64,000 nucleotides of DNA, taken from positions 1 through 64,000 of the forward strand of contig JAHZIX010000018.1 in the NCBI GenBank assembly GCA_022601195.1. The letters are read 5' to 3'. The translations under genes and the position numbers were made by a program. Below the pieces are notes generated by a model, which had not been told where the DNA came from, made no database searches, and saw only the letters and a program-made list of their open reading frames with translations. The DNA comes from Deltaproteobacteria bacterium (lineage in GTDB: Bacteria; Acidobacteriota; Thermoanaerobaculia; Multivoradales; JAHZIX01). Below are positions 19,990 through 30,410 of this stretch, piece by piece; the first letter of the stretch is position 1; every line of letters begins with the position of its first letter.

Positions 19990-20346
19990 CTATGAGTTCC
20001 CTTGAAAGAAATGCTCGCAATCCCCCGGGGAACCAGGCCTGTTGGCATGCTGGGGATCCAAACAGCACAAGACCCCGGTTGCGACCACTTCCACCCAAAT
20101 GGGTGGAGGGGCTGGGCTCAACTCACACCACTCGGTGCAGACAGTGAAAGGAAAGTTCGCATCACAGTAGGCTTGGTTGGCGTCTGCCCGGCCATTGGTC
20201 TGCCATTCACCCTCTTCTGGGCCCGGATAGTTTCCTTCCCAAGGACCCTGGGGAGCGCCGAACGAACCTACTACCGCCAGACCGCAGAGCGCGAATAGGG
20301 ACAATGGCGCCAATATCCACCGACGGATTGAGAGCTTTTCTTGCAT
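19990..20346 (-). CDS. small exported Cys-rich protein
   Basis: A 118-residue protein starting MQEKLSIRRWILAPL at ATG 20346; GAGGAGG lies 8 nt upstream. Residues 1-31 are a signal peptide or anchor. The mature part is Pro/Gly/Trp-rich with paired Cys: YCDANFPFTVCTEWCELS, then VLCCLDP and a final DCEHFF. The pattern VC(A/T)(D/E)W followed by CC is shared with the 92-residue protein at 30132-30410, so the two look like members of one family. I recognise no known domain. Probably secreted and disulfide-bonded (inference). Confidence 0.7.
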   Translation of the reverse strand: MQEKLSIRRWILAPLSLFALCGLAVVGSFGAPQGPWEGNYPGPEEGEWQTNGRADANQAYCDANFPFTVCTEWCELSPAPPPIWVEVVATGVLCCLDPQHANRPGSPGDCEHFFQGNS

Positions 20347-20645
20347 GGATTTTTCCTCCTCAAAGAGATGAGCCGAATTCAAACCGGGCTGATAGGCGAA
20401 AAGCAGGAGCGAATTGGATCAAGTCAGGCTCCTTCGATTTCAGATCTCCCCCCCTCGGCCAAGGATCGGGTGCCAGATAGGCCTTTCAGGAAGGCGTTTT
20501 AGGAAGGATTAGAGTCCAGCAAAAGGGATTCGAATGGGAAAAATGCTCCCGCCCTTCTCGGTTCCATCGGATTAGGTGATAGAGTTAATTTTCGAAAGGA
20601 CCATAACTTCCACGACAGGATGTCTGTGGTGACCGCCGATTGCCG
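20347..20645. other. intergenic region before the second ADOP gene
   Basis: About 300 bases between divergent genes. The part 20561-20600 is relatively AT-rich (GATAGAGTTAATTTTCGAAAGG) and is the likely promoter zone for the permease. No small gene or hairpin stands out. Confidence 0.35.
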
Positions 20646-23210
20646 ATGACAGCGAGGTGTTTGGTGAAGAGTCCAGTCCAGCAGCCAGAACCAAGCCCGA
20701 CCCCCCTCGAAGATTTCGCCTCCCAGAAAGACCAGGGAGAGCTCCTCCGCTGGACCTTTGTCCAGGAAATCCGCTCGGCCCTGCGGACTTTCCAGCAGAG
20801 GCCCTTTCTCTGTGGCCTCGCCATCGTGGTCCTTGCCTTGGGGATCGGCCTCAATGCGGCTCTATTCTCAGCCACCTTCAATCTACTCTTCTCTCCTCTG
20901 CCCTATTTCGAGCCGGACCGCTTGGTATCTCTCTTCGAGACCGCCAAGGACGGAAGCCGCCGCAATGCCGCCTGGCCCAACATCGAAGATTGGCAGGACG
21001 AAGTGGCGACCCTCGAAGGCACGGCAGCGTTCCGTCCCCGAACCTTCGCCTTGCAAGTCGATTCCTCTGACACCATTTCAGTGGTGCAAATTGGCATGGT
21101 GACTCCCGGGTTTTTCTCCGTTCTCGGAGTCTTGCCCTCGCTGGGACGGCTCTTTTCTGCCCAGGATGATCGAGACCAAATCGCTGCGGTGATGCTCACC
21201 GATTCGCTTTGGCACCAGCAGTTCGGCGGCGACCCGGCGATCAAAGGAAAAACTCTGCGCCTCAACGAGGCCCCCTTCACGGTGATCGGCATCCTTCCCC
21301 CGGAGTTCTCCTTCCCTATGGACGGAAAAGTCCCGGCAGCTTTCATCCTGCTAGACAAAGGGGTTTACGGAGAGCGGCGCCATCAACGAACCCTGGGAGC
21401 GGTGGGCCGCAGAAAACACGATGCCTCCCTACGCCAGGTGGGCACCGAGCTTTCGGGGGTGGCCGAGAGACTGGCGCAGGCCTACCCGAACACCAATAGG
21501 AATTTTGGAGCTGGTCTCGAGAGCCTCGAGGACTCCCTCCGTGGTCCTCACCGGGAGCCCCTTCTACTCCTCGCCGGAGCTGGCATCTTGGTATTGATGA
21601 TCGCCTGCAGCACCGCCGCAAATCTCCTGCTCTCGAGCTTTCTGGCTCGGCGCAGAGACTTTGCCCTACGGTCCGCTTTGGGAGCCAGTGAAACAGCGAT
21701 CCTGCGCCTGCTGATGCTCGAGTCTTTGGCCCTGACGGGCAGCGGAGCCCTCCTCGGCTTGGTGGTCACCGCCGCCAGCCTGGCTTCTTTGCCCGCCATC
21801 CTCGACCTCTTGGGCGCCCCTCTGCCAGCGGCTATCGGAACGTCCCTCCCGGGGATGGCTTCCGGTGACCTGGCAAGCTTCACCGCAACAGCCCTCGCAG
21901 CAGCAGCTTTGGCCCTCGTCACGGGCCTGGCACTCGCCTGGCTTCCGGGCCTGGCAGTGAGGGGCCGAGGCTGGGCCTCGCTGCTGCAAACCGGCGGCGC
22001 ACCGACCGAGGGCCGCGGCCGGTGGCGGGAAAGTCTGGTGGTCGGCCAAATCGGCCTCTGCGTGATTCTGCTGCTCACTTCCGGCTTACTCCTGCGTAGC
22101 TTCTCGTCACTTCTCTCTACCTCACCAGGATTCTCCACCACCCGGGTGCTGAAGTTTGGAATCGGTTTGCCCGAAATCCGTTACAACACCGAGCCCGCCT
22201 TCATCGCCTTTCACCAGCGACTGCTGGAGTCCTTGGAACAGATACCCGGAGTCGAAGCCGCAGGTGCTATCGCCCGCCTACCGTTGAGTGGCCGAGGGTT
22301 CTCCGGCGGCTTCCTGCCGGAGGGCGAAGCGGCGGACAATAACCAATGGCCGCGAGCCGCCATCAACCTAGCCAGCGCTAACTACTTCCCCAGCCTCGCC
22401 ACGCCGCTCCTCGAAGGGCGTCTCTTCTCTTCCTTCGACTCCACCGAGTCACCGCGAGTCATCCTGGTCAACCAGGCATTCCGGCTCCAGCACCTAGGAG
22501 GGAAGAGCGCGGTGGGGAAACGCCTCCGACTCACCTGGTTCAGCGAGATCAATCCCAGGGAAACCCCTTGGGAGATCGTCGGAGTCGTGGGCGATACCCA
22601 CCAGACTAGCCTCGAGGAACCACCGAAGCCCGAGATCTTCCTCCCCATGAGCCAATTCCCGGCGGATGGCTGCAGCTACGTGTTGCGCCACGCCCCGGGG
22701 GCCTCTGGAATCGAAGCAGCGGTACGGAGTGCGGTAGAGAAGATAGACCCCGGTCTCGAAAAGCTGCGCATCGAATCTCTTGGCGCGGTCGTGGACCGGA
22801 GTTTGGCGAACCGCCAATTAGCCCTCTACCTGGTGGCGGGCCTGGCAGCCTTGGCGATTCTACTGACCATATTGTCGCTCTACGGAGTGATTACCTTCTG
22901 GGTCGCCCAGAGCCAACGGGAGCTGGCCATTCGACGCTGCCTGGGCGCACGCCGGGGTCAAGTTGCCGCCCTGGCTCTGAACCGTGGATTGCGACTCATG
23001 GCTCTCGGCGCTGGTGTCGGGGCCATCGGTTACCTATTGTTGAGCCGCTGGCTGCGCAGCCACCTGCACCAGGTGAGCACCCTCGACCCTTGGACCTTCG
23101 TGGTCGCCAGCCTGTTATTGGTGACCCTAACGGTCCTCGCCTGTGCCCTACCGTCGGTGCGGGTCGCTCGTGCCTCTTTGCGCATTCTGACTCAGGAGAC
23201 GAACGCCTAA
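20646..23210 (+). CDS. second ADOP-type ABC transporter permease
   Basis: An 854-residue paralogue of the permease at 14544, again a tandem of MacB core and FtsX domains. The first hydrophobic segment is LCGLAIVVLALGIGLNAALF (about 60-80), followed by a core domain with TVIGILPPEFSFPMDG, and an FtsX block near 310-440. The second half repeats this, ending with QRELAIRRCLGARRGQVA (about 755-772). The start is uncertain: ATG 20646 is used; a TTG two codons upstream is also open. It lacks a PadR gene and carries a shorter N-terminus than its paralogue. Role: envelope transport or mechanotransmission, substrate unknown. About 90 nt separate it from the glycosylation genes that follow. Confidence 0.9.
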   Translation: MTARCLVKSPVQQPEPSPTPLEDFASQKDQGELLRWTFVQEIRSALRTFQQRPFLCGLAIVVLALGIGLNAALFSATFNLLFSPLPYFEPDRLVSLFETAKDGSRRNAAWPNIEDWQDEVATLEGTAAFRPRTFALQVDSSDTISVVQIGMVTPGFFSVLGVLPSLGRLFSAQDDRDQIAAVMLTDSLWHQQFGGDPAIKGKTLRLNEAPFTVIGILPPEFSFPMDGKVPAAFILLDKGVYGERRHQRTLGAVGRRKHDASLRQVGTELSGVAERLAQAYPNTNRNFGAGLESLEDSLRGPHREPLLLLAGAGILVLMIACSTAANLLLSSFLARRRDFALRSALGASETAILRLLMLESLALTGSGALLGLVVTAASLASLPAILDLLGAPLPAAIGTSLPGMASGDLASFTATALAAAALALVTGLALAWLPGLAVRGRGWASLLQTGGAPTEGRGRWRESLVVGQIGLCVILLLTSGLLLRSFSSLLSTSPGFSTTRVLKFGIGLPEIRYNTEPAFIAFHQRLLESLEQIPGVEAAGAIARLPLSGRGFSGGFLPEGEAADNNQWPRAAINLASANYFPSLATPLLEGRLFSSFDSTESPRVILVNQAFRLQHLGGKSAVGKRLRLTWFSEINPRETPWEIVGVVGDTHQTSLEEPPKPEIFLPMSQFPADGCSYVLRHAPGASGIEAAVRSAVEKIDPGLEKLRIESLGAVVDRSLANRQLALYLVAGLAALAILLTILSLYGVITFWVAQSQRELAIRRCLGARRGQVAALALNRGLRLMALGAGVGAIGYLLLSRWLRSHLHQVSTLDPWTFVVASLLLVTLTVLACALPSVRVARASLRILTQETNA

Positions 23211-23300: not shown

Positions 23301-24683
23301 TTGCCCCAGCTGCCGGTCATCACCGCCATTACGGCCCCTCCTCCCTGGCCCAACGCCGGCATGGCCAGTGTCGATCTAGCTCTCTACGATCTCTGCCGCC
23401 GTCACCAGCTGGAGGCGGAAGTACGCTTCGTTCAACTCTATTCCTCGGAGGAGAGACTGCCCGAGCTACCCGAGCCGATTCGACAGGACTTTCTGCGGCG
23501 CCAGAGGCTCCCCTTTGCCTACACCCCGTTTCGGGATCGACTGGAAGAGCTCTATGCCAGCGATGTCATTCTCTACTGGGGCGACTTTCTCCACGCCTTC
23601 GGGTACCACTCTCAGGTAGCTGCCATCCTCGTCGACTTGGGTTTGGAGCCCACCTTGGAGGCGGCTGCGGAGACCGTGCGCCAGCATTTCCTACTGACCG
23701 AGGCACCGCGGGAAGCCCTCAGCCGAACCCTCGCCTTCGGCGGCACCCTGGTGTTCAATCGAGACCGTGACTACCGCCACCCGGACTACGGCCCCGCCCT
23801 GGGTCGCTTCGTGGACGCCAGCCGCCGGATCTGGATGCGCGACGTCTACTCCGCCTTGCGGGTTCGCGAGCTGGGGGATTCGCATCCTGGCGATTCGCGT
23901 CCTGGGGGTTCAGGCCAGAGGAACCTAAGTCGGCCCTTTCCTCTCGGGGTGGATGCCTCGCTGCTGCTTCGCCAAGATTGTGTGGCGGCTCTTCCCGGGG
24001 CATTGGAGAGCGCCCCTTCCCAGGCCCCAGCCGCGGGGGTGTTCTTTGGCCGTACCCGACGAGACGTGGCTCCCCTGGCAGCTTTTGCCCGGGATCTGTG
24101 CGCAGCTCTGGACACTCCGGCGGAATGGCTCTCCTGGCTCGACCCTCGCACGCCCCCGGCCCTTCTTGGCCCGACTCTAGAATCCTTTCCCGCCCTTACC
24201 GCGCCGCAAGATCTCGCTCCCCCGGTGGGCGAATTGCTCAGCCGCTTGAGCCAGTACCGCTTTGTGGTGACCGATACCTACCACGTGTGTCTCAACGCTT
24301 GGCGATGCGGAGTGCCTGCCATTTGCCTGGGAGATGCACTGGCAACGCAGCAGAGTTTTGATTGCAGCCTCGGTTGGAGCCACGCCTGGCGGGACAAGCG
24401 TCACGTTTTCTACGCCATGCACGATGCCATGGAGTATTACGTCGCGAGCGAAGAGCTGGCAGACCCGGAGCTCGCCCAGCGAAGACTGCAGCACACCAAG
24501 GAGCTGCTGCAAGACGCGCCTTCCGCGGCGAGCGTCACCGCGTCGATTCGCCGCCGCCGGGACACCGTGGAGCAGGAGCTGGTCCAAGAGCTGCGAATCC
24601 TGCTGAACCCCGGTGCCCCAGGCAAAGCCACCACTAGAGCTACAACTAGTGCCGGAGACACAGCCGAGCCTAGGCGGCCATGA
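23301..24683 (+). CDS. polysaccharide pyruvyl transferase-like protein
   Basis: A 460-residue cytosolic protein. The start is TTG at 23301 with AGAGG 7 nt upstream. The C-terminal nucleotide-binding half has YRFVVTDTYHVCLNAWRCG and VPAICLGD (about 315-345), the typical signature of pyruvyl transferases (CsaB/PssM-like, VVT-S/T-x-H pattern). The N-terminal part has DVILYWGDFLHAFG (about 91-104) at the place of the usual GG motif. These enzymes put a ketal pyruvate on sugars, some instead modify glycans or lipids. The stop overlaps the next ATG (ATGA), so it is translationally coupled to the GT4 gene. A 15-nt tandem repeat encodes DSHPGDSRPGGSG (about 23876-23915). Confidence 0.72.
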   Translation: MPQLPVITAITAPPPWPNAGMASVDLALYDLCRRHQLEAEVRFVQLYSSEERLPELPEPIRQDFLRRQRLPFAYTPFRDRLEELYASDVILYWGDFLHAFGYHSQVAAILVDLGLEPTLEAAAETVRQHFLLTEAPREALSRTLAFGGTLVFNRDRDYRHPDYGPALGRFVDASRRIWMRDVYSALRVRELGDSHPGDSRPGGSGQRNLSRPFPLGVDASLLLRQDCVAALPGALESAPSQAPAAGVFFGRTRRDVAPLAAFARDLCAALDTPAEWLSWLDPRTPPALLGPTLESFPALTAPQDLAPPVGELLSRLSQYRFVVTDTYHVCLNAWRCGVPAICLGDALATQQSFDCSLGWSHAWRDKRHVFYAMHDAMEYYVASEELADPELAQRRLQHTKELLQDAPSAASVTASIRRRRDTVEQELVQELRILLNPGAPGKATTRATTSAGDTAEPRRP

Positions 24684-26236
24684 CCGAATCCCACCGACCA
24701 GCCATCGGCCTCTGTGGGTTTGAGGAACACCCCTGGGCGAGCCTAAATCGCACCCGCGCTTTCTACCTGCGAGCCTTGGCGGAAGAATTCGAGACCACCT
24801 TGGTGGAAGATGTCGTTGCCGCCGCGGCCAGCGGACGATTTGCAGCCTTGGTCAATTTCTTCGGACGAGACTGTTGGGATCTTCCCCAACACCCGGACTG
24901 CCCCCTGCTCCTCGCCCTCCATGGAGGCCCCGTCCTCGATCAGGAATTCCTGCGTTCCCGCTTGGAACGCTTGGAAACTTCCGACGCTCTGATCGTCAAC
25001 TGCACCTCGGACCTGGCGATCTTCGACGACCTATTTGTCGGGGCCGGCCCCCACCTCTGCCACCTTCCCCTGCCGGTAGACCCCGCACGCTTTCATCCCC
25101 TCCCTCGCGACCAGTGTCTAGAGTCGGTACCGATCGTGGAAGCCGACATCGTCATCGGCTTCGTCGGCCGACTGCTGCCTCAGAAAGGCCTCCACTACTG
25201 CCTTCGCTTCATCGCCGAGCTGCAGCGGCGCCTGCATCCACGCACGGTCTCAGGACTGGTGATTGGAGACTACTGGGGTGACTATCCGGTCCTCGACTAC
25301 GTCACTTCGGACTATCCTCAAGGGATCGCCTCGCTCATTCAGGAGCTCGACCTCTCCGACGCCATCGCCTACTTCCCGGCCGACATGAATGACCAGGAGC
25401 TCTCCGCGTGCTACAGCCTCATGGACCTCCTGATTCATCCCACCTGTTCCCTCGATGAGAATTTTGGCTATACCCCCGTCGAGGCCATGGCTTGTGGAAC
25501 CCCCGTTGTGGGGGCTTCCTATGGCGGCCTCAAAGACACCATTGCGGACGGCATTACGGGAATCGCCATGCCGACCTGGACCACCCGGACGGGTATCCGC
25601 ATGGACTCCCTGGCCGCCGTGGAAAAGGCGGAAGCCTGGCTGCGCGATGAGACTGCCCTGAAACAGCTCAGCTCCCAATCTGTCCAACGAGCCCGCCAGG
25701 TGTACTCGGAGCAAGTCTGCGGCCGCGCCCTGTGTGACGGTGTCCGGGAGGCGATCCGCCTTCGTTCCACCGGTCTCGCCAAATCAGGCTCATCCAAAAC
25801 TGGCCCCTCCAAGCCAGGCCCGCCCAAACCAGGCTCATCCAAAACTGGCCCCTCAGAAACAATCAGACTGCGCAGGGAGGCACCCGCCGAGCCCCCTTCG
25901 GGGCTATTGCCCCCCATCGACACTCCTTGGGAGTTCTACCGACCGGTGGTCGAGCACTATGTCAGCGGCCCGCTTCCTTCGCTCCACGACACCACGCGGG
26001 TGTGGATGCCCGCCCCCCTGAAACCCCTCGGCCAAGGGCGCTACCAGGTCCAAGATCCCGCCTGGCCCGCGGTGCATGAGCTCACAGCGGCAGACTTGGA
26101 GCTACTGGAATATTGCCATTCACCGCAAACGGTGGCTCACCTGGAGCTGGCTGCGGGCCCGTGCCGGCAAACCCTCCAGCAGTGGTTGGAGCTAGGCTTG
26201 GTCTCCGCAAGCTCTCCAGGGAAAAGAAAGCCATGA
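24680..26236 (+). CDS. GT4 glycosyltransferase fused to a PqqD-like winged-helix domain
   Basis: A 518-residue protein. Residues 1-370 are a GT-B fold glycosyltransferase with FVGRLLPQKGLHYCLRF, LIHPTCSLDENFGYTPVEAM and CGTPVVGASYGGLKDTIADG, the donor-binding EX7E-type region. Then comes a Lys/Pro/Ser linker of 15-nt tandem repeats (about 25785-25860, SKTGPSKPGPPKPG). The last 65 residues, with HELTAADLELLEYC, SPQTVAHLEL and QTLQQWLELGLVS, match the shape of PqqD/RRE domains that bind leader peptides of ribosomal peptides. The start and stop both overlap neighbours by ATGA. Glycosyltransferase assignment is firm; the peptide-binding domain is inferred from pattern only. Confidence 0.8.
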   Translation: MTESHRPAIGLCGFEEHPWASLNRTRAFYLRALAEEFETTLVEDVVAAAASGRFAALVNFFGRDCWDLPQHPDCPLLLALHGGPVLDQEFLRSRLERLETSDALIVNCTSDLAIFDDLFVGAGPHLCHLPLPVDPARFHPLPRDQCLESVPIVEADIVIGFVGRLLPQKGLHYCLRFIAELQRRLHPRTVSGLVIGDYWGDYPVLDYVTSDYPQGIASLIQELDLSDAIAYFPADMNDQELSACYSLMDLLIHPTCSLDENFGYTPVEAMACGTPVVGASYGGLKDTIADGITGIAMPTWTTRTGIRMDSLAAVEKAEAWLRDETALKQLSSQSVQRARQVYSEQVCGRALCDGVREAIRLRSTGLAKSGSSKTGPSKPGPPKPGSSKTGPSETIRLRREAPAEPPSGLLPPIDTPWEFYRPVVEHYVSGPLPSLHDTTRVWMPAPLKPLGQGRYQVQDPAWPAVHELTAADLELLEYCHSPQTVAHLELAAGPCRQTLQQWLELGLVSASSPGKRKP

Positions 26237-27069
26237 CTTCCAAACCACCTCTATCCGTGATCATTCCCTGGTGTGACCGGCCGGAGCTCGAGACCACCCT
26301 TCAAGCCAATTCAAGTGGTTTCTCTGCCTTTGGCTGTGAAGTTCTGGTCATCAGCTGCGGCGGCGATAGCACCTCCCTAGCTCAGCTCTTGAAGCGCTTG
26401 GACCTACCTAGCCTTGCCGGCTACGAAGTCACGAGAGACGAAGCCGAGGCGGAGACCTTCAACAAAAGCCTGGCTCTCAATCTCGGTGCTGCGGCCGCTC
26501 GCTCCCACCAGCTCTTCTTGTTGGATGCCGATATCGTCTTAGGGGAGGCCTTCCTCGAACAAGCCAGCCAGGCCCTCACCGAGGGCAGCTTCGTCACCGT
26601 CGATCGAGTGGAAGAATCTCAGAAGGCGAGGACGCCGGGAGACTCCCAGTTGCTGGAAATCGTTCACTCCATGGAATTCGAGACGGTCGGTGGCCAGCGG
26701 GCCAAGGTGGAAACCAATCGGCTGCGGTTTTCCGACGGCAGTCGCAGCGCTCCAGGATTGGTACTGCTCCGGCGAGAGGATTTCATCGCCGTCGGTGGCA
26801 TGAGCTCGAGGCTCGAGGGATGGGGTTGGGAGGATCTCGATCTACTGGTGAGGCTACAACTTCAGCTCAGCCTGGCTTGGAAGCGAGTGGGATCGGTGGT
26901 GCACTTGAGTCACGGAGACGAAGCCCGTAGCTTCCACCAAGACGGCAAGGCTGCGAACCAGAGACAGAATTTGAGCGCCTGTCTGGAGCAATACCACCAA
27001 GGCTGCTTTCTCGGCACCTACGAGGAAGACACTGCGGCCCTTTCCTCCTCCCTGCATCGCCTCATCTGA
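26233..27069 (+). CDS. family 2 glycosyltransferase with galactosyltransferase-type C-terminus
   Basis: A 278-residue protein starting MTSKPPLSVIIPWCDRPEL at 26233, inside the ATGA overlap with the GT4 gene; an upstream in-frame ATG would sit deep in that gene. A GT-A fold is indicated by SVIIPWCDR, FNKSLALNLGAAAA and the metal-binding FLLDADIVL (DxD, about 96-104). The C-terminal GMSSRLEGWGWEDLDLLVRL (about 197-216) is the ED-type acceptor motif of galactosyltransferase-like GT7 enzymes. It is the third member of a translationally coupled trio. It converges with the gene at 27111 with only 41 nt between stops. Together these genes could build or attach a short glycan. Confidence 0.88.
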   Translation: MTSKPPLSVIIPWCDRPELETTLQANSSGFSAFGCEVLVISCGGDSTSLAQLLKRLDLPSLAGYEVTRDEAEAETFNKSLALNLGAAAARSHQLFLLDADIVLGEAFLEQASQALTEGSFVTVDRVEESQKARTPGDSQLLEIVHSMEFETVGGQRAKVETNRLRFSDGSRSAPGLVLLRREDFIAVGGMSSRLEGWGWEDLDLLVRLQLQLSLAWKRVGSVVHLSHGDEARSFHQDGKAANQRQNLSACLEQYHQGCFLGTYEEDTAALSSSLHRLI

Positions 27070-27110
27070 GTCTTCCCGTCCGAATCCCATCCCACCGACG
27101 AGGGGAAGAA

Positions 27111-28787
27111 TCAACGGCTCAAGGCGTCTTCCCCCACCGCAGAACCTCCCCATAGCCCTCCTCCCTGCCCCTCGAGGGTCGGTAGAGTTTTATCGACCAA
27201 CGCCACCATCGCTTCGGCCACCTCCTCGGCTGGAGAATTCTCCTCGAAAAGAACTCTCAGGCGCCCCCTATTCCGAGACCAACCGGGCTCCCATTCCACG
27301 GTTTGGCTACGGAATTGCTCTCCCACCGCCGCGGTGAGATCGCGCAGAACCGGCCCCAAAGGGCGCACCGCGTCACTTTCCAAATGGATCTCCGCTCCCA
27401 CACGATCGCCGTAGTCCAATAGCTCGTAGTGCACGGCACGAGGCCAAGCGGCGGGCCCGATGCGGCGAAAATGCCCCAGATGCCCTCGGGGGCCGAGGCC
27501 TTGTCGAGCACGCACCGCATAGTGCTCCACGATCGCCTCGAAACGGGGACGAATGGTCACGGAGGGCGGTGCGGCCGCGTAGATTCCTGACGAGAAGAGT
27601 GCGGGCGGAACCGAGGAACGCTCCAGCCCCGGCTGAGCAGCCAGGGCATCGAAGTCGACCTCGAACCGTCGGAGATCTGCCCTCTCCAACCGACGGTTCC
27701 CCCGCTGGGCTCGCGTCACCTCCAACTGTAGAGTCATGGCGCGCCGGTAATGCCCGAGATGCAGGAAGCAGTCGAGAAAGGAGAGCTCCGCCAAAGCCTC
27801 CGGAAGCAAGGCGTTGAGCTCGTTGAGGACCAGAGCCATGGCGCCGCGATGCTCTGCCTCGATGGGATAGCCCATCGCTTCCGCAAAACCAGCCAACTCG
27901 ATGAGGTGGCCGGCGTAATAGCAGTGGTTTTCCAGGTATTCGTCGACGATGAGGGTGTCCCGCAGCTCCCGCACCAAACGAGACTCCGGGCTCTCCTCCG
28001 CCAACGACCTTCCTGTGTCCAAGAGCCGGCGGGCTTGCTGGAGAATGACGCCCAGCAGCAGAAGCATCTCCAACTGGCCGGACAAAAAGCCCTGCCCTTG
28101 GGAACGAAAACCCTCGAAGCCGGGTACCAGCGCCGCTACCGCGCAAATGCCCTCGGTGAGGTGAAACTTGCGGCACACGTCGAAGCCGCCGAAATGGTGC
28201 GCCTCGATGGCTAAATCCACCAACGAGGAAAGATCGTGCTCTTCACCGTCCAGGGAGAAGACACCTTCCAGCGCCTCCCCTCCCAGCTGAGCCGCGGCAA
28301 ATAGCAGGTGCCCCAACTCGATGCCCTTGTCGGTGCGCAAGAAACGGCTGTTGGCCGCTAGCTGACTCAAGGTAACGCCACCAATGGCATCCTCGAACAA
28401 CGCCTTGTGGGGCTCGACTCCTGCCATGACCGCATAAGCCAGGCTCTGCCAGGGGTGATAGTCCCCTTCCGGGTCGCACTGCAACAGAATCGGACCACCG
28501 CTACGGTTGCGATGCACGAAGGGCTCGAGCTCGGCGGTGAGGGGTCGACCTCGAAAAAGACCGTCTCCCCAACCGTTGAAGACATGACAGAGGTGAGGTA
28601 GGCCGTCTCTTTCGACGATCGCCGGCAAGGAATGAGCCATCTGGAGCGCCAGCTGCTCCGAGACCCTCTCAACCGCCGCCACATCGAGCTGCGGCGATTG
28701 CCGAAGGAGATCCGCGCGCATCCCCTCCACCGCCTGCTTCTCCCGGGCCGAAAGCTCCAGAGGCCACCAGAAGGTTGGTTCAGGCAT
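27111..28787 (-). CDS. unrecognised alpha-helical protein, His/Cys-rich
   Basis: A 558-residue protein with no signal peptide. The ATG at 28787 is preceded by GGAG 4 nt upstream and overlaps the isomerase stop codon (28780), so it is translationally coupled; an ATG at 28805 is the alternative. I do not recognise the family. Residues 60-260 contain clusters that could bind metal: LPHLCHVFNGWGDG, AIEAHHFGGFDVCRKFH. Residues 285-375 hold ENHCYYAGHLIELAG and DCFLHLGHYRR. The C-terminal 150 residues look alpha/beta with repeated Val/Leu strands. The position, after a peptide gene and a sugar isomerase, suggests a maturation enzyme or a tailoring enzyme for a peptide-linked glycan, but this is context only. 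Confidence 0.7.
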   Translation of the reverse strand: MPEPTFWWPLELSAREKQAVEGMRADLLRQSPQLDVAAVERVSEQLALQMAHSLPAIVERDGLPHLCHVFNGWGDGLFRGRPLTAELEPFVHRNRSGGPILLQCDPEGDYHPWQSLAYAVMAGVEPHKALFEDAIGGVTLSQLAANSRFLRTDKGIELGHLLFAAAQLGGEALEGVFSLDGEEHDLSSLVDLAIEAHHFGGFDVCRKFHLTEGICAVAALVPGFEGFRSQGQGFLSGQLEMLLLLGVILQQARRLLDTGRSLAEESPESRLVRELRDTLIVDEYLENHCYYAGHLIELAGFAEAMGYPIEAEHRGAMALVLNELNALLPEALAELSFLDCFLHLGHYRRAMTLQLEVTRAQRGNRRLERADLRRFEVDFDALAAQPGLERSSVPPALFSSGIYAAAPPSVTIRPRFEAIVEHYAVRARQGLGPRGHLGHFRRIGPAAWPRAVHYELLDYGDRVGAEIHLESDAVRPLGPVLRDLTAAVGEQFRSQTVEWEPGWSRNRGRLRVLFEENSPAEEVAEAMVALVDKTLPTLEGQGGGLWGGSAVGEDALSR

Positions 28788-29508
28788 CGAGCTCCGGAAC
28801 TCCATTTGGGCCCCGTGAGTCCCCGGCTGCTGCCCGTAGAACTCTGGAAAGCGCGTGGCAAGCCACCATATGAATGTCCTCCACCGGCAAATACCCCGGG
28901 TGGGGAACTAGAAAGTGGATATCGCAGAGAGAGCGCGCCTGGCCGCCGTCGAAGCCCAATAAGCCGAGGGTGGTGACTCCCTGACTCCTGGCGTAGGCCA
29001 GGGCCCTCAGGCAATTGGCGGACTGGCCGGACGCGGAGATGGCGAGCACCGCATCCTGTTGCTGAAGCCTCCCTTTCAACTGGCGGGAGAAGACTTCCTC
29101 ATAGCCATAGTCGTTGGCCAGGGCAGAAAAGAGGCTGGGATTTCCATTCAGACAAACGGCCCTTAAAGGAGGCTCCCCCAAGGGCTGCATAGCGGAGAGG
29201 TCGTTGGCGAGATGTAGAGCTGTGGCCGCGCTACCCCCATTACCTAGCAGGTAGAAAACGCCTCGCTGCTGCCGGGTACGCCGAAGCACCGCGGCCATCT
29301 CAGCCACGGGTTTGGCGGACAACCCAAGGAGCAGATTCGCCACCTCATGGAAGTGCGCCGTCGCTTGGTGCTCCGTTTCGGCAAGCTCTTCTTCGGCGAG
29401 CTGTCCCGCTGGTGCCAGATCCTGGAGTGAGTCCCCCGGCGAAACCGGCACCCCCATCCCTCTTCGACTCAATTCTGGAAAAGAAGAGGAATGAGGCGGT
29501 GTAGGCAT
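28780..29508 (-). CDS. GmhA-like SIS-domain sugar-phosphate isomerase
   Basis: A 242-residue protein of the SIS fold, starting MPTPPHSSSF at ATG 29508 with AGGAG 10 nt upstream. Typical features are LGNGGSAATALHLANDL (about 88-104), LAISASGQSANCLRAL (SxSGxS phosphate loop, about 148-163) and VEDIHMVACHALSRVL near 205-220. That arrangement fits GmhA, which turns sedoheptulose 7-phosphate into heptose 7-phosphate, or DiaA. No other heptose-pathway gene is in the window, so it may supply a sugar dedicated to this locus (inference). About 40 extra N-terminal residues precede the conserved fold. It lies second in the minus-strand unit behind the small Cys-rich peptide gene. Confidence 0.85.
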   Translation of the reverse strand: MPTPPHSSSFPELSRRGMGVPVSPGDSLQDLAPAGQLAEEELAETEHQATAHFHEVANLLLGLSAKPVAEMAAVLRRTRQQRGVFYLLGNGGSAATALHLANDLSAMQPLGEPPLRAVCLNGNPSLFSALANDYGYEEVFSRQLKGRLQQQDAVLAISASGQSANCLRALAYARSQGVTTLGLLGFDGGQARSLCDIHFLVPHPGYLPVEDIHMVACHALSRVLRAAAGDSRGPNGVPELDA

Positions 29509-29602
29509 GGGAACAGCTCTCCTGTTTTAGTAAGGTCCTTTTGAGCCGACTGGGGCGAGCCAAGAAATCCGACGAGCTCCGTACTCGCCGCAATTCAGGG
29601 CT

Positions 29603-29634
29603 CGCCGTGACTCAGTGCTCACTGAGATTCGGCG
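29603..29634 (-). terminator. hairpin between the peptide gene and the isomerase gene
   Basis: CGCCG (29603-29607) and CTCAGT (29611-29616) pair with ACTGAG (29621-29626) and CGGCG (29630-29634), giving a two-part stem with a 3x3 internal loop and a 4-nt apex. It begins 12 nt past the peptide stop codon. No T-run follows on the minus strand, so it may act as a partial terminator or mRNA stabiliser, which would raise peptide mRNA above enzyme mRNA (inference). Confidence 0.55.
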
Positions 29635-29645
29635 TTGGCCGAGAC

Positions 29646-29783
29646 TCAGCGCTCGCAGCAACCTTGGGTGCAACACCCCAGAATGAGCATATCGATGAAC
29701 TCGTTGGCATTCCCGGTCAAGTCCTTTCGACTCAACTTGCGTACCGTCTTGGAATTCTTCGACGTCTTTTCAGCGCTCTTCAT
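29646..29783 (-). CDS. 45-residue Cys-rich peptide, candidate RiPP precursor
   Basis: A small open frame of 45 codons. The ATG at 29783 has AAGGAGG 5 nt upstream, an almost perfect ribosome-binding site, and a consensus promoter lies about 35 nt further up. The N-terminal half is basic (MKSAEKTSKNSKTVRKL), followed by an amphipathic segment with LTGNANEFIDMLILG, then a C-terminal core CCTQGCCER. Leader plus short Cys-rich core is the usual plan of a ribosomally made, post-translationally modified peptide. It precedes the isomerase gene by 137 nt and shares its strand. A PqqD-like domain on the neighbouring GT4 could bind the leader. The coding start and composition are seen; processing and modification are inferred. 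It could also be an unmodified small regulator. Confidence 0.72.
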   Translation of the reverse strand: MKSAEKTSKNSKTVRKLSRKDLTGNANEFIDMLILGCCTQGCCER

Positions 29784-29848
29784 GAAGTCCTCCTTGGTAA
29801 AATTTGTTAACTATTTCATTATAACCGCAGGTACCCATATTTTGTCAA
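29784..29848 (-). promoter_or_regulatory. consensus sigma70-type promoter and 5' UTR of the peptide gene
   Basis: On the minus strand TTGACA (29848-29843) and TATAAT (29823-29818) are both exact consensus hexamers, separated by 19 nt, one or two more than optimal. The predicted transcript starts near 29811, giving a 28-nt AT-rich leader with the palindrome GTTAAC and the AAGGAGG ribosome-binding site. No other gene in the window has signals this strong that I could see. Confidence 0.75.
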
Positions 29849-30131: not shown

Positions 30132-30410
30132 TTACGGGCCACCACCAAAGTGCCGAAAGCTGGAATGACAAGCGTTGATATCAGGGGATCCAATCTCGCT
30201 ACTGGGAATACAACAGTAACCCTTCCAAGTTGAGCCCGAGACTTCCCAATCCGCGCAGACCATGCCGGCAGGGCAATCATCGTGACCACTCTCCACCCAT
30301 CTTCCACCATTGGGCACTGCCATGGAAACCACCGCCACCAAACAAGCGAAACCGAAACTAGCGATGATCCAAGCCTTCCGGATTCGATTGAATTGATCTT
30401 TATTCAACAT
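30132..30410 (-). CDS. small exported Cys-rich protein, same family as 19990-20346
   Basis: A 92-residue protein starting MLNKDQFNRIRKAW at ATG 30410 with GAGGAG 7 nt upstream. Residues 13-33 are hydrophobic (WIIASFGFACLVAVVSMAV), a signal peptide or anchor. The outside part is GGRWVESGHDDCPAG, MVCADWEVSG, then KGYCCIPS and a final ACHSSF. The VC(A/T)(D/E)W and CC elements match the 118-residue protein at 19990. It lies directly upstream of the candidate peptide locus and has its own hairpin terminator. Function unknown; secreted or membrane-tethered is inferred. Confidence 0.7.
   Translation of the reverse strand: MLNKDQFNRIRKAWIIASFGFACLVAVVSMAVPNGGRWVESGHDDCPAGMVCADWEVSGSTWKGYCCIPSSEIGSPDINACHSSFRHFGGGP

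Follow-up and report, generated by a model that had tools for sequence, protein, structure and literature searches.

Organization of the locus

The window, that is the whole 64,000-nucleotide stretch of DNA analysed, carries on its minus strand a precursor peptide gene of 45 codons (29646..29783; MKSAEKTSKNSKTVRKLSRKDLTGNANEFIDMLILGCCTQGCCER). An AAGGAGG ribosome-binding site is located 5 nt ahead of the ATG. The Cys-rich gene, with its basic leader, core and ribosome-binding site, is present as reported in the preliminary description, which also mentioned consensus promoter hexamers. The hexamers TTGACA and TATAAT (29818..29848, minus strand) are indeed both exact, but they are separated by a spacer of 19 nt, as counted on the sequence, so the promoter as a whole departs from consensus; a scan admitting spacers of 16-18 nt gave no match for these hexamers. 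The interval between the precursor and the next gene (29509..29645, minus strand) is rich in hairpins (MFE -57.2 kcal/mol, z -3.56), and its RNA folds better than 200 out of 200 shuffled sequences. This stretch is a possible attenuator.

Downstream of the precursor, on the same strand, are found a GmhA-like SIS isomerase of the sedoheptulose-7-phosphate isomerase family (P0006, 28780..29508; PF13580, E 2e-16) and a protein of 557/558 residues (P0005, 27111..28787), made of a helical N-terminal domain and a C-terminal domain resembling type III secretion chaperones and YbjN. The two genes overlap by about 8 nt. Three plus-strand genes converge with the precursor operon, and encode a polysaccharide pyruvyl-transferase-like protein (P0002, 23301..24683), a GT4 glycosyltransferase (P0003, 24680-26236) and a GT2-type glycosyltransferase with a GT7C-like C-terminus (P0004, 26233..27069). 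ATGA overlaps join the three, as earlier described; the pyruvyl-transferase assignment is weak (PF04230, PS_pyruv_trans, E 0.0027, below cut-off), and no match to this protein was found in the relatives' loci compared, so that among these loci it was seen in the window only. The GT4 protein consists of a catalytic part similar to MshA and GlgA (24680..25880) and of a predicted RRE/PqqD-like C-terminal domain (25883..26236) with three strands and three helices.

Additional genes are found at the borders of the locus. A permease of the ADOP family, MacB/FtsX-like (20640-23210, plus strand; TIGR03434, above cut-off), ends 90 bp before the pyruvyl-transferase-like gene on the same strand, and could either be an export part of the system or be unrelated to it. 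The family of this permease suggests that the window belongs to Acidobacteriota. Two small proteins, of 92 (30132-30410, minus strand) and 130 amino acids (19990-20382, minus strand), flank the locus; both have signal-peptide-like starts and several cysteines, and neither matches Pfam. A comparable small Cys-rich, secreted-looking protein of 126 amino acids is encoded near the GT4/GT2 pair of the related Acidobacteriota genome described below (L027:9601-9981).

The precursor peptide and its relatives

When P0005 was used as bait against 84,980 species genomes, homologues were identified in an Acidobacteriota MAG (L003, 46%) and in Duganella sp. 1411 (L004, 35%). A third relative, G490, came from a search of the Duganella family. 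P0005 homologues are thus known from four genomes in total, belonging to two distant phyla. No further full-length homologue was detected in samples of 295-399 genomes each from the phylum of the window, the Duganella family and the phylum of the latter, where few candidates per genome were scored, nor in 75 genomes of the genus Duganella and 17 of the genus of G490. Plasmids and viral contigs similarly yielded none. When the GT4 subfamily was looked for in 396 genomes sampled from the phylum of the window, with three candidates scored per genome, a single genome, that of the window, proved to have it.

All four genomes (4/4) host, along with P0005 and a precursor, the GT4 and GT2 pair. In the MAG the pair lies on a different contig (G341:C44) from the precursor, and no heptose gene adjoins the precursor locus. 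One to three precursor genes are located directly upstream of the P0005 homologue in the three relatives; in the window too the precursor is upstream, with the GmhA-like gene in between. The check on the proposal, set beforehand, was that distant relatives keeping these enzymes should keep the peptide next to them, and this was observed in each of the four genomes.

The window precursor is made of a basic leader (RKLSRKDLTGNA) and of a core containing GCCTQGCCER. The precursor of the MAG reads ...VTGGQIIRGCCTQGCAETPPPPA, that of Duganella sp. 1411 ...VAGGATLSEKLVNVRDWDASVIEGCCGQSCCEQNQEMAWE, and G490 features three tandem precursors, with cores GCCSQDCC, GCCTQKCC and GCCSQGCC. All six precursors from the four genomes share the invariant core G-C-C-x-Q-x-C, followed by either C or A. 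The residue between CC and Q may be T, S or G. Since the G, C, C, Q and C positions are invariant and this residue is not, a Ser/Thr at this position cannot be the common acceptor, and the conservation pattern makes Cys or Gln the more likely acceptor or modified residue.

In 444,674 six-frame residues from the window and the related loci, GCC.Q.C marks the six precursor genes only; a seventh match comes from a locus that overlaps the window and repeats its peptide. In the host genome, of 8 Mb, a degenerate form of the core pattern has a single occurrence. A profile built from the five peptides of the relatives, the window peptide being left out, ranked the 45-codon ORF first among the 884 ORFs of the window (E 7e-4; runner-up 0.1), and the MAG peptide alone retrieved the same ORF with E 1.3e-4. 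The uniqueness of the motif and this ranking rule out a chance ORF, and on sequence grounds the 45-codon ORF is established as a real precursor peptide gene. Precursors of the Duganella family exhibit dN values of 0.20-0.31 and dS values of 0.33-1.56, with dN/dS of about 0.14-0.65. As is typical of RiPPs in general, a conserved short gene encoding leader and core is found beside putative modifying enzymes.

Candidate enzymes, and the probable sugar supply and transport

The GT4 homologues of the three other genomes are 35-48% identical to that of the window, and their GT2 partners 41-48%. A model of the C-terminal ~115 residues of GT4, built from three sequences (pLDDT 78), shows three strands followed by three helices. 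Neighbours listed by Foldseek in the PDB include NisB, MadB, MibB, TruD, ThcOx, McbB, TigE and MccB, all enzymes carrying RRE domains, as well as the carbamoyltransferases GdmN/NovN; E-values range from 0.05 to 1, none being under 0.001. The PqqD-like end attributed to the GT4 in the preliminary description agrees with the predicted fold, but Pfam and sequence-HMM searches gave no match to RRE. The modelled fold fits a leader-binding RRE/PqqD-like domain. The GT2 enzyme is related, in a PDB sequence search, to chondroitin synthase and beta-4-GalT, and weakly matches the NCBIfam models of MftF and of an arsenosugar mftF-like family. No SunS-family NCBIfam model was hit up to E 1, nor any SunS-type structure in the PDB search.

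P0005 had been presented as an unrecognised protein of 558 residues lying, together with the GmhA-like isomerase, downstream on the precursor strand, and this proved correct, as no match was found in Pfam, NCBIfam or PDB sequences. The AF2 model (pLDDT 80) features a mainly helical N-terminal part, for which no structural match was found in the PDB or among viral models, and a separate C-terminal domain that resembles YbjN and the chaperones of type III secretion (ExsC, SchA, CesT), folds that hold other proteins. The C-terminal ~110 residues are all that is shared by G313 (L005:1447-2541, minus strand), where they are carried by a NucS-like PD-(D/E)XK protein; since the domain recurs in this setting, it is a mobile module. 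Histidines occupy 13 of the 132 columns invariant in the four homologues, twice the background, which suggests a metal site. The likely substrate of P0005 is the invariant CCxQxC segment.

The sugar-related genes vary among the genomes. P0006 scores 111 bits against TIGR00441, below the equivalog cut-off of 209, and in the alignment has Asp and Glu at two positions, which we take to be catalytic in GmhA, where the bona fide enzymes have Glu and Gln. The GDP-D-glycero-D-manno-heptose pathway comprises GmhA, HddA, GmhB and HddC. Models of HddA (a kinase), HddC (a guanylyltransferase) and GmhB are the best heptose-pathway matches of G490 proteins, strong though below the NCBIfam equivalog cut-offs, as are all the heptose-pathway scores, and homologous HddA and HddC are encoded by Duganella sp. 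1411. GmhA is located elsewhere in the G490 genome, and GmhA-like, HddA-like and HddC-like genes are scattered in that of the window. Because each of the two lineages contributes other genes of one sugar pathway, heptose is favoured, and is probably the sugar supplied, as judged from these gene assignments, a connection that the preliminary description had not drawn; the sugars put on the peptide are perhaps seven-carbon. On contig C23 of the window's genome (L028:15136-15909) lies a paralogue of the GmhA-like gene whose product is 56% identical to P0006 and reads GGDNR in place of the GNGGS loop; within a few kb of it are genes for an HddC-like nucleotidyltransferase, a C-methyltransferase-like protein and an RfbC-like epimerase. 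This region is a possible second unusual-sugar cluster, and no GCC-type peptide was found beside the paralogue.

The two Duganella-family clusters are organized alike. Both start with an Atxe2-like (lasso-isopeptidase-like) S9 peptidase and HddA, after which come an LLM oxidoreductase and a WecB-like epimerase, a TonB-dependent receptor and a small protein, and then a C39-type ABC exporter and HddC. In G490, GmhB and a radical SAM protein adjoin the cluster. The latter (L011:3433-4359, minus strand) sits beside GmhB and HddC at the cluster edge, and was not found in the Duganella sp. 1411 stretch examined. The C39 peptidase exporter of G490 has its homologue in Duganella sp. 1411, and none lies within the window locus. 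The earlier statement that no protease or exporter is adjacent is consequently correct for the window, apart from the ADOP/MacB-like permease, but does not extend to the Duganella family. V-A-G-G closes the leaders of this family, whose positions -12 and -4 are Leu and Val, and substrates of C39 peptidases have hydrophobic residues at -7/-12 of the leader (PMC12457901). By its sequence, the end of the Duganella-family leaders would suit cleavage by a C39 peptidase; the window peptide has no GG cleavage site. The association of a TonB receptor with an isopeptidase-like S9 enzyme, by analogy to lasso-peptide clusters, suggests re-uptake of the product.

Most of these genes might also be found in a common gene cluster for lipopolysaccharide or capsule glycans, where the small ORF would be present by chance or for an unrelated purpose. 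Surface-glycan clusters typically contain GT4, GT2, GmhA-like, pyruvyl-transferase-like and WecB-like genes, and HddA and HddC are known from systems in which GDP-heptose is made for capsules and S-layers. The peptide, however, is conserved in place across two phyla, is under purifying selection and is triplicated in G490; it is accompanied by the C39 peptidase exporter and the predicted RRE-like domain, and the conserved genes include neither flippase nor polymerase. A surface-glycan origin is accordingly very unlikely.

Alternatively, the peptide could be the scaffold for a small cofactor-like product of the mycofactocin/pearlin type, most of it being discarded and the product staying inside the cell. 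The cofactor mycofactocin is itself a RiPP and is oligo-glycosylated (PMC7491314), and the weak matches of the GT2 to MftF and to the arsenosugar mftF-like family, the lack of an exporter in the window and the flavin-type LLM oxidoreductase of the Duganella-family clusters would all agree with such a scaffold. Yet secretion and uptake are suggested by the C39 exporter and the TonB receptor that both Duganella-family clusters encode, the shared core is devoid of a radical-SAM gene, and the conserved residues are internal rather than C-terminal. We regard a scaffold function as improbable, if a little less so than a surface-glycan cluster.

The locus quite probably directs the biosynthesis of a glycosylated RiPP of an undescribed kind. 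The shared gene set very probably modifies the Cys-rich peptide with P0005 and sugars, and the product is probably RRE-dependent and heptosylated, with a His-rich core enzyme. The GT4 would bind the leader by its C-terminal RRE-like domain and put the first sugar on the core, and the GT2 would add another. P0005 would act on the Cys/Gln core by cross-linking, oxidation or cyclisation. In the Duganella family, cleavage at the AGG motif and export would both fall to the C39-peptidase ABC exporter, releasing a product which the TonB-dependent receptor and the S9 protease would let the cell take back up, as is done with a metallophore or a signal.

A functional sub-case of the glycosylated RiPP reading is a thiol-rich metallophore playing a methanobactin-like role, in which P0005 matures a core that binds metal, and the main use of the sugars is in solubility or receptor recognition. 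Given the cysteines and the TonB receptor such a role is attractive by analogy; the CCxQxCC core, the isopeptidase-like protease found with the receptor beside the exporter, and the many invariant histidines of P0005 are in line with it. Against it, no MbnB (DUF692) or MbnC homologue was found among the scanned proteins of the window locus and of the relatives' neighbourhoods, and no metal-responsive regulator was identified. On balance we hold the metallophore role possible but doubtful. The most specific form of the hypothesis, in which the His-rich metalloenzyme P0005 rearranges Cys-Cys-x-Gln-x-Cys, the RRE-bearing GT4 heptosylates Cys/Gln and the outcome is a secreted, re-imported metallophore-like peptide, is more tentative still, and rather unlikely to hold in every part.

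Comparison with known systems

To our knowledge, classes of glycosylated RiPPs are few. A search of open-access papers for heptosylated RiPPs, or for this gene set, found none, in keeping with the earlier remark that no described class has it. Glycocins, such as sublancin, glycocin F and thermoglycocin (PMC12457901), had been brought up as a parallel, and are in name the closest characterised kind. Like them, the present clusters combine a Cys-rich ribosomal peptide with a glycosyltransferase and, in the Duganella family only, with a C39-peptidase ABC exporter. The parallel fails in its details, and membership was rejected: glycocins rely on SunS/GccA-type GT2 enzymes and have a (C-X6-C)2 nested disulfide pattern, whereas here the GT2 falls outside the SunS family and resembles GT7C/chondroitin-synthase-type enzymes, and the cores read CCxQxC(C/A). 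An extra GT4 with a predicted RRE-like domain, P0005, heptose-type genes and Gram-negative hosts are further differences, and no thiol-disulfide oxidoreductase was seen.

RRE-Finder has predicted proteins in silico that unite an RRE domain with a glycosyltransferase, and these were left unassigned (PMC7470986; PMC12710340), PF00535 being named for such a fusion in the second report. They resemble the present case in this fusion and in its location near RiPP-like genes; as far as their descriptions go, they differ from it in that the glycosyltransferase here is a GT4 and comes with an identified, conserved precursor. Mycofactocin (MftA-F; PMC7491314) is likewise a RiPP with a leader-binding domain and a glycosyltransferase. 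It depends on the radical SAM enzyme MftC and on a C-terminal Val-Tyr, both absent from the shared core; Pfam and NCBIfam revealed no radical SAM protein at the window locus, and one of uncertain kind lies beside the G490 cluster. Here, in contrast, two glycosyltransferases are present, and relatives also encode an exporter and a TonB receptor. Lasso peptide clusters of Proteobacteria share with the Duganella-family ones the TonB receptor and the Atxe2-like S9 protease next to the precursor; they differ in that, among the genes examined here, there is no lasso cyclase or leader peptidase, and the precursor does not follow the lasso pattern. Set against these systems, the P0005 family, which has no family match and an N-terminal fold without match, is tied to an invariant seven-residue core, and the clusters would represent a new class within RiPPs.
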